Assembly: GCF_007858535.1 (NCBI RefSeq)
Contig: NZ_CP040174.1
Location: forward strand, 1,674,001-1,738,000
Origin: Arthrobacter sp. UKPF54-2
GTDB taxonomy: Bacteria > Actinomycetota > Actinomycetes > Actinomycetales > Micrococcaceae
Reading direction: 5' to 3'
DNA: 64,000 nucleotides
The translations under genes and the position numbers were made by a program. The first letter of the stretch is position 1, and each line of letters opens with the position of its first letter. The notes under the pieces were generated by a model. The model made no database searches and was not told the origin of the DNA. It saw only the letters and a list, made by a program, of their open reading frames with translations. Below, in pieces: positions 47,782-53,625 of the stretch.

Positions 47782-48219
47782 GGGCATGCCCTTCCCTGGG
47801 CGTGAGGGATGGACATATGCGGATTATGTTCAGTGGGAACGGCCGAGAACGGGCATGTGCGTTGGCTGGCCCGGGGGTTGGCGCGTCCGCGTTGGCCGGT
47901 CCGGGGCTTGGCGCGGGGCATGTCCTTCCCTGGGTGTGAGGGATCGGCATGCCCTTCCCGGGGCGTGAGGGATGGACATATGCGGATTATGTTCAGTGGG
48001 CGCGGCCAAGAACGGGCATGTGCGTTGGCTGGCCCGGGGTTGGCGCGTCCGCGTTGGCCGGTCCGGGGCTCGGCGCGGGGCATGTCCATCCGTGGGCGTG
48101 AGGAGTGGACATATGCGGATTATGTCCAGTGGCTGCGGCGTGGAACGGGCATGTCCTGTGGAACCTGGGCCCGAAGGATGGGTATGCGCGTCAGACCGGT
48201 ATGTGGGACGGGCATGTCC
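47782..48219. repeat. Intergenic tandem repeat with GGGCATGYCC cores
   Basis: This fills most of the 583-base gap between the oxidoreductase and purD, both of which start next to it. Three units carry the block GGACATATGCGGATTATGT (at 47811, 47974 and a variant at 48107), spaced 163 and 133 bases. The extra 30 bases come from a local duplication around 47916-47975. Core 10-mers GGGCATGYCC or close variants lie at 47782, 47916, 47945, 48078, 48147 and 48210, with GGGCATGTGC at 47851 and 48014. The frames open through it change between units, so it is not read as coding. Confidence 0.85.
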
Positions 48220-48261
48220 AGCAGGGCGGTCACAGCTTAGGAGCCGGCCGGGTCCACAACG

Positions 48262-50569: not shown

Positions 50570-51832
50570 TCAGGTGCCGGCGGCGGCCGCGGCGCGGCGC
50601 TGGGCCAGCCGGATCTCGAGCACGGCGTCCATGGCCTGCTGGACCCGGTCGGAGGCGCCGGCCGCGCTGAACTCCTTCTGGGCTTCCTCCAGGTACACGA
50701 GGGCCTCCTCGGCTTCGCCGGCGGCCTTGAGTGCCTTGCCCAGCAGGAGCGAGACCTCGCCCGCGGTGTGCTTGGCCAACACGTCCCGCTCCGCGTGGAT
50801 CTCGCGCAGCTTCTGCACGGCGCCCACGATGTCGCCCGTGAGGTAGAGCCAGCGCGCCCGGATGAAGGCAACTTCGAGGTGGTCCGTTTTGTTGCCGCCC
50901 ACAATTGAGAGGGCCAGTTCGGCGCGTTCGATCGCGGACAGGGTTTCCGGTTCGACGATCCCGGAGGAGAGGCGTACTGCGGCGGAGGCCTTGTTGAACC
51001 TGGCCCAGAGGTCGATGTCGTTCGCGGGGGAGAGCAGCTTGGCGGCTTTCTCGTGGTACTTGATGCCCTCGGGGTAGTCGTGGCGCATAAAGGCGACGTT
51101 GCCCACCACCCAGGCCACCTCTCCGGCCAGCTGGGACATGGACTGCTCATCCATCTGCTCGTTCATGTCCTGGCAATACTTCCAGGCCTCGTCCAGACGG
51201 CCGCTTTCGGCCAGGGCGCCGATCAGCGCGCGCAGGGCGCCGATGATCAGGGTGGAGCCCTTGGGCAGCTGTGAGCAGAGCCGCACCGCCTCCTCGGCCT
51301 GTTCCACCGCCGTGGTCAGCTGGCCCTGGCCCTGGGCGGCGGCGGCAAGCATCTGCCGGGCCCGCACCCCGAGACCGGCCGACTCGGCGGCCATCGGATG
51401 GTCCAGCAGGCGCTGCACGATCGCCTTGCAGTCGGCCCACATGCCCTGCTTGATCATGCATTCGGCCTGCATGTAGGTCATGTTCCACCAGGCGCTGGTG
51501 TTCTTGGCTTCCAAGGCGATCTGGGCGGCAGCCGCGGCGTGTACCGCCGCCAGCGGGTAGTCCCGGAGGTCCCAGGCCTGGCGGGCGTACAGGCCGGCCA
51601 GTACGTACTCGGCGTCGCTCACGGAAACCGGCTGGCTCCACGCTTCGAGGGCTTTGGGAGCCAGCTCGAGTCGGCGGGCGAGTTCCTCGATGACATCCGC
51701 GGTAGGTTCCCGGCGGCCCGTTTCGAGCAGCGAGATGTAGCTCGGCGAGTAGAGATCCTTCCCCAGCTCGGCCTGCGTGAGCCCACGCTCCAGCCGTTCC
51801 GCGCGGAGTTTCTCCCCGAATCCGTTCCCCAC
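50570..51832 (-). CDS. XRE-type HTH regulator with TPR sensor domain (RRNPP-like)
   Basis: A 420-residue protein. An XRE helix-turn-helix covers about residues 4-60 (FGEKLRAERLERGLTQAELG, SPSYISLLETGRREPTADVI). The rest, from about 75, is helical repeats of TPR type (AWWNMTYMQAECMIKQGMWA, DLWARFNKASAAVRLSSGIV, VSLLLGKALKAAGEAEEALV), ending in an Ala/Arg tail. This is the design of PlcR, NprR, Rgg and PrgX, whose TPR part binds a small imported peptide. The GTG at 51832 has GAGG 8 bases upstream; a GTG 3 codons earlier overlaps that site. It is divergent from the VGNWPDPM peptide gene, its likely partner. Peptide binding is inference. Confidence 0.82.
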   Translation of the reverse strand: MGNGFGEKLRAERLERGLTQAELGKDLYSPSYISLLETGRREPTADVIEELARRLELAPKALEAWSQPVSVSDAEYVLAGLYARQAWDLRDYPLAAVHAAAAAQIALEAKNTSAWWNMTYMQAECMIKQGMWADCKAIVQRLLDHPMAAESAGLGVRARQMLAAAAQGQGQLTTAVEQAEEAVRLCSQLPKGSTLIIGALRALIGALAESGRLDEAWKYCQDMNEQMDEQSMSQLAGEVAWVVGNVAFMRHDYPEGIKYHEKAAKLLSPANDIDLWARFNKASAAVRLSSGIVEPETLSAIERAELALSIVGGNKTDHLEVAFIRARWLYLTGDIVGAVQKLREIHAERDVLAKHTAGEVSLLLGKALKAAGEAEEALVYLEEAQKEFSAAGASDRVQQAMDAVLEIRLAQRRAAAAAGT

Positions 51833-51871
51833 GGATACCACCTCATTCCGGACACTTCATGTACTAAATGC

Positions 51872-51911
51872 TTGACACTCTCTGTGGAAAACATTTTACA
51901 ATGTATGTCAA
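51872..51911. promoter_or_regulatory. Overlapping divergent promoters with palindromic operator
   Basis: On the plus strand TTGACA (51872-51877) is followed by TTTACA (51895-51900, 17 bases) or TACAAT (51897-51902, 19 bases), giving a strong promoter for the peptide gene. On the minus strand another TTGACA (51911-51906) faces the regulator gene. The palindrome ACATT-TTAC-AATGT (51891-51904) lies on the plus -10 box. A related sequence, CATTTAGTACATG, occurs on the minus strand at 51870-51858. These are candidate sites for the HTH-TPR protein. Confidence 0.6.
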
Positions 51912-51962
51912 CAAGGGCAGTGCTGACTTGGTAACGACTCCGACTCAAAATTGAGGAACTCT

Positions 51963-52181
51963 ATGTTGAAGAAGATTGCAGCCGGCGCGGTTCTCGCGGG
52001 CGCCCTGGCTTTCTCCGCAGCGGCTCCGGCCGTTCTGTCCGCAGGTTCCATCGCCGATACCACCAACATCACCGCCGTTGGCAACTGGCCGGACCCCATG
52101 CGTACGGCCACGGCCGTGGGCAACTGGCCCGACCCGATGACCTACTCCACGAACGTGGGCAACTGGCCCGACCCGATGTAA
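51963..52181 (+). CDS. Secreted repeat-peptide precursor (putative pheromone), VGNWPDPM x3
   Basis: A 72-residue preprotein. Residues 1-26 form a Sec signal peptide (MLKKIAAGAVLAGALAFSAA, then a likely cut after APA). After a short linker come three exact copies of VGNWPDPM, at residues 39-46, 52-59 and 65-72, spaced by 13 residues; the last Met is the C-terminus. The variable linkers are RTATA and TYSTN. GAGGAA lies 4 bases before the ATG. A strong promoter and an intrinsic terminator frame the gene. Repeated identical short peptides behind a signal sequence, next to an HTH-TPR regulator, point to a processed signalling peptide. I know of no described family; a small structural or toxin peptide is the alternative. 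Confidence 0.85.
   Translation: MLKKIAAGAVLAGALAFSAAAPAVLSAGSIADTTNITAVGNWPDPMRTATAVGNWPDPMTYSTNVGNWPDPM
52077..52178 (+). repeat. Three 24-base repeats encoding VGNWPDPM
   Basis: Copies lie at 52077-52100, 52116-52139 and 52155-52178, spaced 39 bases. Copies 2 and 3 are identical in DNA (GTGGGCAACTGGCCCGACCC, then GATG). Copy 1 differs only at synonymous positions, so the peptide is conserved while the DNA has drifted. Confidence 0.95.
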
Positions 52182-52196
52182 CCAGACGCTCGAAGG

Positions 52197-52238
52197 ACAG
52201 CCCCGGCAACGCCACTAGGTGTCCCGGGGCTGTTTTTT
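52197..52238 (+). terminator. Rho-independent terminator of peptide gene
   Basis: A perfect 10-base stem (ACAGCCCCGG and complement) with a 17-base loop, followed by TTTTTT, 16 bases after the stop codon. It is the clearest intrinsic terminator in the window. Confidence 0.85.
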
Positions 52239-52255
52239 ATCTCATCCCCGTCGAC

Positions 52256-52335: not shown

Positions 52336-53625
52336 GGGTTATAGGACAAAATGTGTGTCTGCGTGAGGCCTGCTTCCTAGTGCCGGGGCGGTAATGCGGG
52401 GTTTGCTATGCCCTGAGACTCGTAGTTGTGGCTGGTGCTGGGAATTCCTCGCGTTGTGTGCTCTGTGGTTCTGGACTCAAGCGGAACGGTAAGACCTCCG
52501 CCGGGCGGACCCGGTGGAGATGTACGGGGTGCGGTGCGAGCAGCACCAGGACCCGGCCCGATGTGGAACGCCGGGCCCAACTGGGCGCCTTTCTCGGCTG
52601 GCTCATGGGCAAGAGCTCCCAGGTCGAGTGTGTCCGGGAAGGCGCCGACCGGTCCTTCCGCCGCCGGACGGGCTGGTGCTGGAATATCGCCCCACAGATT
52701 CCCGTCACCGGCGAGGTCCACGACCAGATCCAGGTCGACGGGATTTACGTCGGCTCGTGGTGCTGCCTGATCGCGGTCGCCGGCGATTACGTCCTCGGGT
52801 GGCAATGGTGCGACACCGAGAAAAAGGCTGCGTGGGCGGCCCTGCTGGCAAGGTTCCCCGCGCCCACGGTCGTGATCACCGACGGCGGCGCCGGGATTGC
52901 CGCCGCCCTGTCTGAATGCTGGTCCGAGACCGCGGTCCAGCGCTGCCAGGTGCACGTCCAACGCAACGTCCGCACCTACCTGACCGGCCGGCCCAGAACC
53001 GAGGCCGGCAAAGCGCTCCTGCGCCTTGGCCGTGCCCTGACCAGAATCACCACGGCGACCGAAGCCGCGGCCTGGCTCGGAGGCCTGAACGACTGGTATC
53101 AGGACCACGGGCACCTCGTCCGGGCCAGGACCTACCGCAACGGCACCGCCCTCGTGCCGGGATGGGTGCGGGCAAACCAAAGCTGGTGGTTCACCCACGA
53201 CCGGCTGCGCAAGGCCTACCGGCTCCTCGAACGCCTCAGCCGGGCCGGGACTCTCTTCACGTACCTGCGTGCCGAACACGCCGGGCTCAACATTGCACCC
53301 ACAACCAACCGAATCGAAGGCGGCACGAACGCCCAGCTCCGTCTAATCCTCCGGGCCCACCGCGGGATGAGCGAAGAGCACCAAAAGCGCGCCATCGAGT
53401 GGTACCTCTACCTCCACAGCGAAAACCCGCTACCGCCGGCCGAGCTGATCGCGGCGCACCACTACGAGCTCCCGCGGCCGAAGCGAACGGTGATCACGGA
53501 CGGTACTCCGGGCCCGGAACGTTATAGCGCCGGTCTCAGCGCCGAAGAAGGCCTCTGGGCCAGAAAAGGCTGGGCAGGACGCACCTAACACGCCCGAAAA
53601 AGACACACATTTTGTCCTATAACCC
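52336..53625 (+). mobile_element. IS256-family (IS1249-type) insertion sequence, intact
   Basis: A 1,290-base element with perfect 25-base terminal inverted repeats (52336-52360 and 53601-53625; outer end GGGTTATAGGACAAAATG). It carries one transposase gene and is flanked by an 8-base direct repeat GCGACCTG, the size expected for this family. The perfect ends and target repeat suggest recent insertion. It landed in non-coding DNA between the peptide gene and tRNA-Pro, so no gene appears broken. Confidence 0.93.
52428..53588 (+). CDS. IS1249-type transposase
   Basis: A 386-residue transposase. A zinc ribbon at the N-terminus (CVLCGSGLKRNG and CTGCGAS) is followed by a DDE domain: Asp in IQVDGIYVG, Asp in VITDGGAGIAAAL, and Glu in NRIEGGTNAQLR. 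RCQVHVQRNVRTYLTGRP is the usual spacer region motif. The start is GTG 52428. It is full length and uninterrupted, so the element is probably active. Confidence 0.92.
   Translation: MAGAGNSSRCVLCGSGLKRNGKTSAGRTRWRCTGCGASSTRTRPDVERRAQLGAFLGWLMGKSSQVECVREGADRSFRRRTGWCWNIAPQIPVTGEVHDQIQVDGIYVGSWCCLIAVAGDYVLGWQWCDTEKKAAWAALLARFPAPTVVITDGGAGIAAALSECWSETAVQRCQVHVQRNVRTYLTGRPRTEAGKALLRLGRALTRITTATEAAAWLGGLNDWYQDHGHLVRARTYRNGTALVPGWVRANQSWWFTHDRLRKAYRLLERLSRAGTLFTYLRAEHAGLNIAPTTNRIEGGTNAQLRLILRAHRGMSEEHQKRAIEWYLYLHSENPLPPAELIAAHHYELPRPKRTVITDGTPGPERYSAGLSAEEGLWARKGWAGRT

Follow-up and report, generated by a model that had tools for sequence, protein, structure and literature searches.

A repeat-peptide precursor and its divergent XRE-TPR regulator in Arthrobacter: a putative RRNPP-like pheromone system with leaderless peptide copies in phages

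The window analyzed here is the whole stretch of 64,000 nucleotides (nt) from the 3.5-Mb genome of Arthrobacter sp. UKPF54-2 (NZ_CP040174.1, positions 1,674,001 to 1,738,000). It contains a small gene on the forward strand (51963..52181; ATG at 51963, stop codon TAA at 52179-52181) for a proposed pheromone precursor of 72 amino acids (aa), which consists of a Sec-type signal sequence and three copies of VGNWPDPM. The copies lie on the same strand at 52077..52100, 52116..52139 and 52155..52178, with a period of 39 nt (13 aa), and the third is C-terminal with the TAA directly after it. The preliminary description of this DNA, which had reported a 72-residue preprotein with three exact copies 13 residues apart and the last at the C-terminus, was exact on re-reading of the window. 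Its statement that only synonymous sites set copy 1 apart was also borne out: copies 2 and 3 were identical in DNA, and copy 1 deviated at three third-codon positions (GTT/GTG, CCG/CCC and CCC/CCG), all synonymous. The signal sequence was scored by a home-made measure of charge and hydrophobicity (mean hydropathy 2.19 over 12 residues). A DNA pattern spelling NWPDPM gave three matches in the whole genome, all at the precursor locus, and its reversed control gave none.

Divergent from the precursor gene, with 121 bp between them, lies the gene for the proposed pheromone receptor (50570..51841, reverse strand), a regulator of 423 aa from a GTG start with an XRE-type helix-turn-helix (HTH) and tetratricopeptide repeats (TPR). 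A divergent XRE-TPR regulator had been described here before, and it is present. Its HTH exceeded the Pfam gathering score (HTH_31, 45 bits vs 27), and its TPR matches, detailed below, fell just under the Pfam cut-offs.

The intergenic region holds a proposed promoter of the peptide gene, identified, like the terminator, by eye and script. The proposed –35 hexamer, TTGACA (51872..51877), and the proposed –10 hexamer, TACAAT (51897..51902), are separated by 19 bp. TTGACA is also the left arm of an inverted repeat, TTGACA-N28-TGTCAA, whose right arm lies at 51906..51911. Between and over the hexamers is a conserved core, TGTGGAAAACATTTTACAATG (51883..51903), a proposed operator present in a single copy per genome where found. 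A likely ribosome binding site, GAGG (51953..51956), precedes the ATG. All these are on the forward strand, and the elements at 51872-51911 occupy the left part of the 51.87-51.96 kb stretch in which the preliminary description had placed the promoter.

Across the genus, TTGACA, the 19 bp, TACAAT, the core in the form TGTGGAAAA(C/T)ATTTTACAATG and the TGTCAA arm were all kept. The script parsed 74 of 77 loci, and the spacer was 19 bp in every one of them; the –10 hexamer was TACAAT in 72 and TACTTG in two. With up to three mismatches allowed, the core was found in 58 of 61 genomes at one site each, and this site adjoined the regulator in the genomes whose coordinates were compared. The layout fits self-control, with the regulator site predicted to lie inside the over-long spacer.

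A strong hairpin running into a T run (52192..52238, forward strand; –32.6 kcal/mol for the folded stretch) starts 11 nt past the stop codon and is a probable intrinsic terminator, so the precursor gene looks like a one-gene transcript. Among the relatives, 24 of 77 passed a crude terminator test. A simple promoter and terminator scan, which allows only spacers of 16-18 and loops of 3-8, reported neither element.

The pair was conserved in the genus. A regulator match was found in 197 of 198 genomes, and a DNA pattern spelling GNWPDPM in 160 of 198, with the reversed control at zero in every row. In a family-level sample the pattern was present in 36 of 295 genomes and confined to two of 32 genera. 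The named relatives retrieved with the regulator belonged to Arthrobacter, Pseudarthrobacter and Paenarthrobacter (best 80 of 139). The preliminary description had proposed a search for conserved repeat peptides beside orthologous regulators, and such peptides were found at 83 of 83 loci, 82 by script and the remaining one (L031) by eye. The motif itself had led to sixteen of these loci, some genomes are represented twice, and 30 were picked for missing the exact motif. The regulator had led to the other 67, every one of which had a divergent precursor (66 by script, L031 by eye). The association of precursor and regulator is not due to chance.

Among 77 distinct precursors, one had a single copy of the motif, 39 had two, 26 had three, nine had four and two had five, and 73 ended exactly on the motif. 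The linkers varied in sequence and in length, from two to more than 20 residues. Counted from an M[L/F/I/V]KK start, the length of the relatives ranged between 46 aa (L025) and about 90 aa. A database search with ten precursors gave at least 474 relatives, of which the 120 listed had names such as hypothetical or low-complexity protein.

To the suggestion that selection acts on the peptide, the codons of the copies gave clear support. Comparison within precursors (191 pairs from the 77; only copies matching G[NI]WP[DN]P[MAV], which excluded three degenerate ones) showed 383 synonymous and no non-synonymous codon differences. In a representative 21-mer, 11 of the available single changes are synonymous and 52 are other.

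The pattern was missing in exact form from 38 genomes, of which 30 loci were read; of the other eight, one was without a regulator, two had a split regulator and five were not fetched. A precursor was present in all 30, and all its copies had changed together, to GNWPDPA in 22, GNWPDPV in six, GIWPDPM in one and GNWPNPM in one. On a receptor tree of 77 rows, six changes in all are needed to explain the peptide forms. The A form requires three events of gain or loss, and well-supported branches make two of these unavoidable. The predicted peptide does change, as a rule in all copies together. Receptor residue H203 was considered as a marker of the A peptide (22/22) and dropped, as it was also present in five of 47 M receptors.

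The same genome encodes a receptor paralogue of 357 aa that has the TPR part and no HTH (G000:C1:500202-501275, corresponding to L092:3203-4276; reverse strand). It was about 42% identical to the regulator over residues 79-405, and its named database relatives are called hypothetical or TPR repeat protein (best 120 of 367). Beside it, on the forward strand (L092:4439-4627), is a Sec-type preprotein ending in VDWWPNSLRK. Counterparts of the paralogue elsewhere adjoin peptides that end in or hold IGWWPN, VGWWPH, VNWWPN, VNWWPD, VNNWPG or VGYWPF; at one of them, L107, no neighboring peptide open reading frame (ORF) was found under the signal-peptide ORF filter described below. Receptor paralogues thus have predicted variant peptides of their own.

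Two side observations concern the number of receptor matches per genome. Of the 38 genomes without exact GNWPDPM, 35 had a single receptor match, two had a split regulator and one had none. GNWPDPM was kept in 121 of 123 genomes with two or more matches, and 39 GNWPDPM genomes had only one. The single-match genomes without exact GNWPDPM may lack the TPR-only paralogue. The link of the changed peptide with a single match may reflect one loss, because the changed peptides fall into a single region of the receptor tree.

More distant regulators also adjoin small preproteins. Beside an HTH-TPR protein of another genus (L043, L111; 37-39% identical), AVGNWPDR is repeated five times, in four cases with FYSVTP after it. 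An HTH-TPR protein of another family (L047, L110; 26-27% identical) adjoins three copies of VGGSWPT. Other regulators have preproteins of 28-30 aa ending in SFPGP, SFPWGGT, GYPWPK or GFPWPK, or peptides of a second class with CC (GATGCCRTMV and GPGPACCTT, for example). The XRE-TPR regulators of L051, L052, L053, L055, L057, L060, L061 and L131 have tiny Sec-type neighbors of this second class, in which the CC motif reads GCCR, GCCK, ACCTT or ACCAP. At the phylum level, the close regulator family was found in nine of 346 genomes at E <=1e-25, the genome of the window included.

For 35 paralogous or more distant regulators, the signal-peptide ORF filter (both strands; score threshold 1.9, raised from 1.6) found a signal-peptide micro-ORF within 500 bp upstream in 25 and within 500 bp downstream in one; shuffled upstream regions gave 18 of 700. 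The set includes the GNWPDPM-bearing L040 from a sister genus and same-genus paralogues. Matches confined to the HTH (L056, L058 and L059) were excluded, as were repeat copies of a place already counted.

The motif was also present in phages. In a viral collection, the GNWPDPM pattern was found in ten stretches, and the reversed pattern in one. Seven of the ten contained possible micro-ORFs of 10-12 codons ending at the motif. In five (L132, L133, L135, L138 and L139) the micro-ORF reads MRIGNWPDPM and has AGGAG 4-6 nt ahead of the start; in L134 and L140 it reads MMSTIGNWPDPM or MSTIGNWPDPM, with AGGAG 11-14 nt from the start. The seven include near-copies and represent about four lineages. 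Of the remaining stretches, L141 has a hydrophobic 53-codon ORF with the motif at its end, and L136 is a weak match with a GTG start and a frame that continues to GGDDA. The match in L137, antisense within a long phage ORF, was taken as chance. The related Arthrobacter phages Talia1610, Mimi and Racecar (192-194 kb) were first indicated by a DNA search with weak matches only (E 0.8 to 10) and then read directly. They contain an unannotated GTG micro-ORF, MKRIGNWPDPM, with AGGAG eight bases upstream. The phage micro-ORFs are putative and may be translated.

A regulator homologue was sought in 50,697 phage records, which gave none except one 60-residue HTH match, and a receptor homologue in 17 partial phage stretches, which gave none. 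Several further searches produced no usable candidate. In an uncontrolled search, the IGWWPN pattern occurred in at least 120 viral stretches and was dropped as unspecific; in 25 of 80 of these the motif belonged to a short frame or stood close to the end of the frame, and their mean G+C was 41%. In viral contigs, GNWPDPA followed by a stop gave one match, which reads TGG instead of the stop, and GNWPDPV followed by a stop gave none; one further micro-ORF pattern was likewise without a match. A plasmid search gave three weak Azospirillum matches, taken as chance.

Some bacterial genomes have extra copies without a signal sequence as well, for example MSSIGNWPDPM and MYSIGNWPDPM. In L126 and L115, the GNWPDPM and GWWP types are together in one small ORF. 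Leaderless chromosomal small ORFs with GNWPDPM were noted in L112, L115, L116, L117, L118, L123, L124 and L126; ahead of them, by eye, is a frame ending in a DPGSSPD-like tail and then a hairpin. The leaderless or single-copy GNWPDPM ORFs of L113 and L125 lie near genes that we take to be PRC-barrel-like. The stretch conserved at such orphan loci consists, by eye, of the end of the preceding gene and a stem. Rfam at gathering scores gave no match in 14 orphan loci, and Pfam gave none over its cut-off in five proteins from them, of which the L117 protein is on the strand opposite to the orphan.

We interpreted the pair as very probably a peptide pheromone system that works like the RRNPP systems, with a Sec-exported precursor and the divergent XRE-TPR regulator as its receptor. 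By analogy with those systems, the 72-aa precursor would be exported through Sec and its signal peptide removed. Proteases outside the cell would trim the remainder to [V/I]GNWPDPM or GNWPDPM, giving several ligands per precursor. The peptide would then re-enter through an oligopeptide permease and bind the TPR groove of the regulator; the five SBP_bac_5 proteins encoded in the genome offer a possible import route. The conserved 40-bp element, within which the peptide promoter lies, would be the binding site of the regulator, and the first output of the regulator would accordingly be control of the peptide gene itself. As to the direction of this control, the over-long spacer shifts the balance somewhat from simple repression toward activation that depends on the ligand. 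In phages and at some chromosomal loci, the leaderless peptide would reach the receptor within the cell and occupy it with no need of a quorum. A ligand acting inside the cell is suggested because the bare leaderless copies are most easily understood in this way. Such a ligand is a prediction of an RRNPP-like receptor, not of a toxin that acts outside. The RRNPP-like reading had been put forward in the preliminary description, and it gained support from the conserved pair, the constraint on the copies, the paralogue peptides, the micro-preproteins adjacent to other regulators and the phage copies.

Several results weigh against this interpretation. The precursor scored 13.8 bits against the Phr N-terminal model, whose cut-off is 25. 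The TPR matches of the regulator were TPR_12 at 26.0 (cut-off 30.1; E 1e-5), TPR_6 at 24.1 (26.3) and TPR_14 at 23.0 (23.5); TPR_12 clears the cut-off in the relative L110, with 36.9 bits. A profile search of the PDB with the regulator reached PlcR (E 1.3e-8) and ComR (4e-6) over HTH residues only, and among the best 60 of 144 matches there was no sequence link to named RRNPP families outside the HTH. The operator-like core was found only once per genome, and therefore no wider regulon was visible in the 58 of 61 genomes with the core. The filter found no signal-peptide ORF at ten of the 35 regulators, although one of these, L111, holds the five-repeat precursor, which it had missed. A degenerate further copy was present in three of the 77 precursors (GNWADQL in L034 and L065, GNLPDPM in L087); L088, outside the 77, also has one, GNSPDSV. 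Two motif forms were mixed in two of 120 database relatives listed. Of eight named phages scanned whole, five were without the pattern found in Talia1610, Mimi and Racecar.

Another explanation for a signal sequence followed by a conserved C-terminus at the stop codon (73 of 77 precursors) is a translational arrest or secretion-monitor peptide, of which SecM, MifM and VemP are examples. The C-terminal WPDPM would stall the ribosome and control a downstream gene, and the leaderless phage micro-ORFs, which likewise end at the motif, would agree with this. However, the strong hairpin and T run past the stop in the window leave no downstream gene that seems coupled; among the relatives, only 24 of 77 passed the crude terminator test. 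Stalling would not need the two to five copies found in 76 of the 77, and the motif varies with the receptor paralogue. This leading rival is weakened by the window terminator, the multiple copies and the paralogue-specific motifs, and we consider it improbable.

A second alternative, that the peptide is a secreted antimicrobial or toxin and the XRE-TPR protein an ordinary local regulator, is in our judgement very improbable. The product is indeed small, Sec-type and next to a regulator, but in the ORF list of the window no gene for modification, immunity or transport was obvious immediately beside it (two ABC-type ORFs are found farther away, from 53857 onward). Throughout the genus the motif hardly varies, with the linkers changing freely, and phages carry a bare ORF of 10-12 residues with no export signal. 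That the repeats are a DNA-level element or a low-complexity repeat without peptide function would agree with their tandem arrangement and with the low-complexity names of some database relatives. This is already contradicted by the codon-level constraint of 383 synonymous against no non-synonymous differences, and the concerted change from M to A or V across all copies speaks against it too, making it extremely improbable.

Two other features of the window were noted. The ORF list shows a repeated stretch with overlapping ORFs at 47800-48240, upstream of a purD-like gene. Downstream of the pheromone gene, at 52428-53588, is an ORF that is presumably transposase-like.

On top of the RRNPP-like pheromone system, a wider reading seems to us fairly probable. 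Actinobacteria would use an undescribed peptide language of RRNPP-like type, with GxWP, FPWPK and CC classes. The finished host pheromone would be encoded by several phage lineages as a leaderless micro-ORF of 10-12 residues, which would switch the host receptor within the infected cell and so signal a false quorum. Some chromosomes would do likewise through leaderless loci, a few with GNWPDPM and GWWP together.

Peptide quorum sensing through cytoplasmic TPR receptors has been treated as a trait of the Firmicutes, and the Arthrobacter pair would extend it beyond them. Across Arthrobacter, Pseudarthrobacter and Paenarthrobacter the predicted ligand and receptor are kept together; the paralogues are likewise paired, and other families have relatives. 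With a single synthetic peptide of eight residues, the social behavior of a common soil group could thus be probed directly. If phages do encode only the bare peptide, this would be a new route for manipulating host signaling, and one that can be tested with the isolated phages Talia1610, Mimi and Racecar on Arthrobacter globiformis. The findings suggest that a bacterial language has been overlooked, one that phages have come to use as well.

The preliminary description knew of no described actinobacterial counterpart. A literature search, with bioRxiv outside its scope, agreed in finding no actinobacterial RRNPP system; nor was this system described in what was available of the literature on Arthrobacter peptide pheromones, phage-encoded pheromones and the peptide sequence. 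According to the accessible part of a 2023 survey, actinobacterial signals are typically small molecules (PMC10075063). The portions available of a 2016 actinobacterial review deal with cyclic or modified peptides and gamma-butyrolactones, and leave a TPR-receptor system unmentioned (PMC4748050). RRNPPA genes are reported, in the text available, from several genera, all but one within Bacilli, in a search of Firmicutes only (PMC9765709).

The accessible part of the survey characterizes RRNPP systems by a propeptide of 10-100 aa, a Sec signal, a receptor of 250-500 aa with TPRs, adjacent genes, homology of the receptor to a founding RRNPPA family, and re-import of the mature peptide for binding to the receptor (PMC10075063). 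The Arthrobacter pair has a propeptide of 72 aa, a Sec signal by the home-made score, a receptor of 423 aa (357 aa for the TPR-only paralogue) and adjacent genes. PlcR-PapR, NprR-NprX and Rgg-SHP, as far as described there, likewise combine a TPR receptor of 250-500 aa with an adjoining small exported propeptide (PMC9765709, PMC10075063), and among solved chains the HTH of the Arthrobacter regulator resembles those of PlcR and ComR. In the available account of the Bacillales RRNPPA systems, the pheromone gene is downstream of the receptor (PMC9765709). Unlike the Firmicutes RRNPPA systems, the Arthrobacter pair is from Actinobacteria, with divergent genes and with one to five copies in the loci read.

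Repeated pheromones have a parallel in the Rap-Phr systems. Rap receptors are not known to have an HTH, which parallels the TPR-only paralogue class of Arthrobacter. Phr105 and Phr3T of Bacillus phages are, in the part of the source available, tandem propeptides in which the pheromone occurs internally and at the C-terminus in identical copies, as many as eight (PMC11343458). An exported propeptide with identical copies and an intracellular TPR receptor are thus shared, but Rap-Phr is from Bacillota and its phage carries the pair of receptor and propeptide (PMC11343458); the phage stretches read here have a bare leaderless peptide, and no receptor was found in them.

Phage genes that address host peptide sensing are also known. 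Paratox, a prophage protein, inhibits the RRNPP receptor ComR in Streptococcus, as far as the source consulted describes it. In both cases a gene product of a phage would act on peptide-pheromone signaling of the host; Paratox does so as an inhibitory protein, whereas the phage ORF here would be the pheromone itself. The pheromone-mimic peptides iCF10 and iAD1 of enterococcal plasmids and the arbitrium peptide AimP are peptides of mobile elements that address a peptide-sensing circuit. Unlike these, the phage peptide here has a core identical to that of the host and no export signal. In arbitrium (AimR-AimP) the phage carries both receptor and peptide, and the phages here differ in that no receptor homologue was found in the phage records apart from the one 60-residue HTH match, nor in the 17 partial stretches. 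On grounds of its working, and not of descent, we class the Arthrobacter pair as probably RRNPP-like, a variant in a new phylum.

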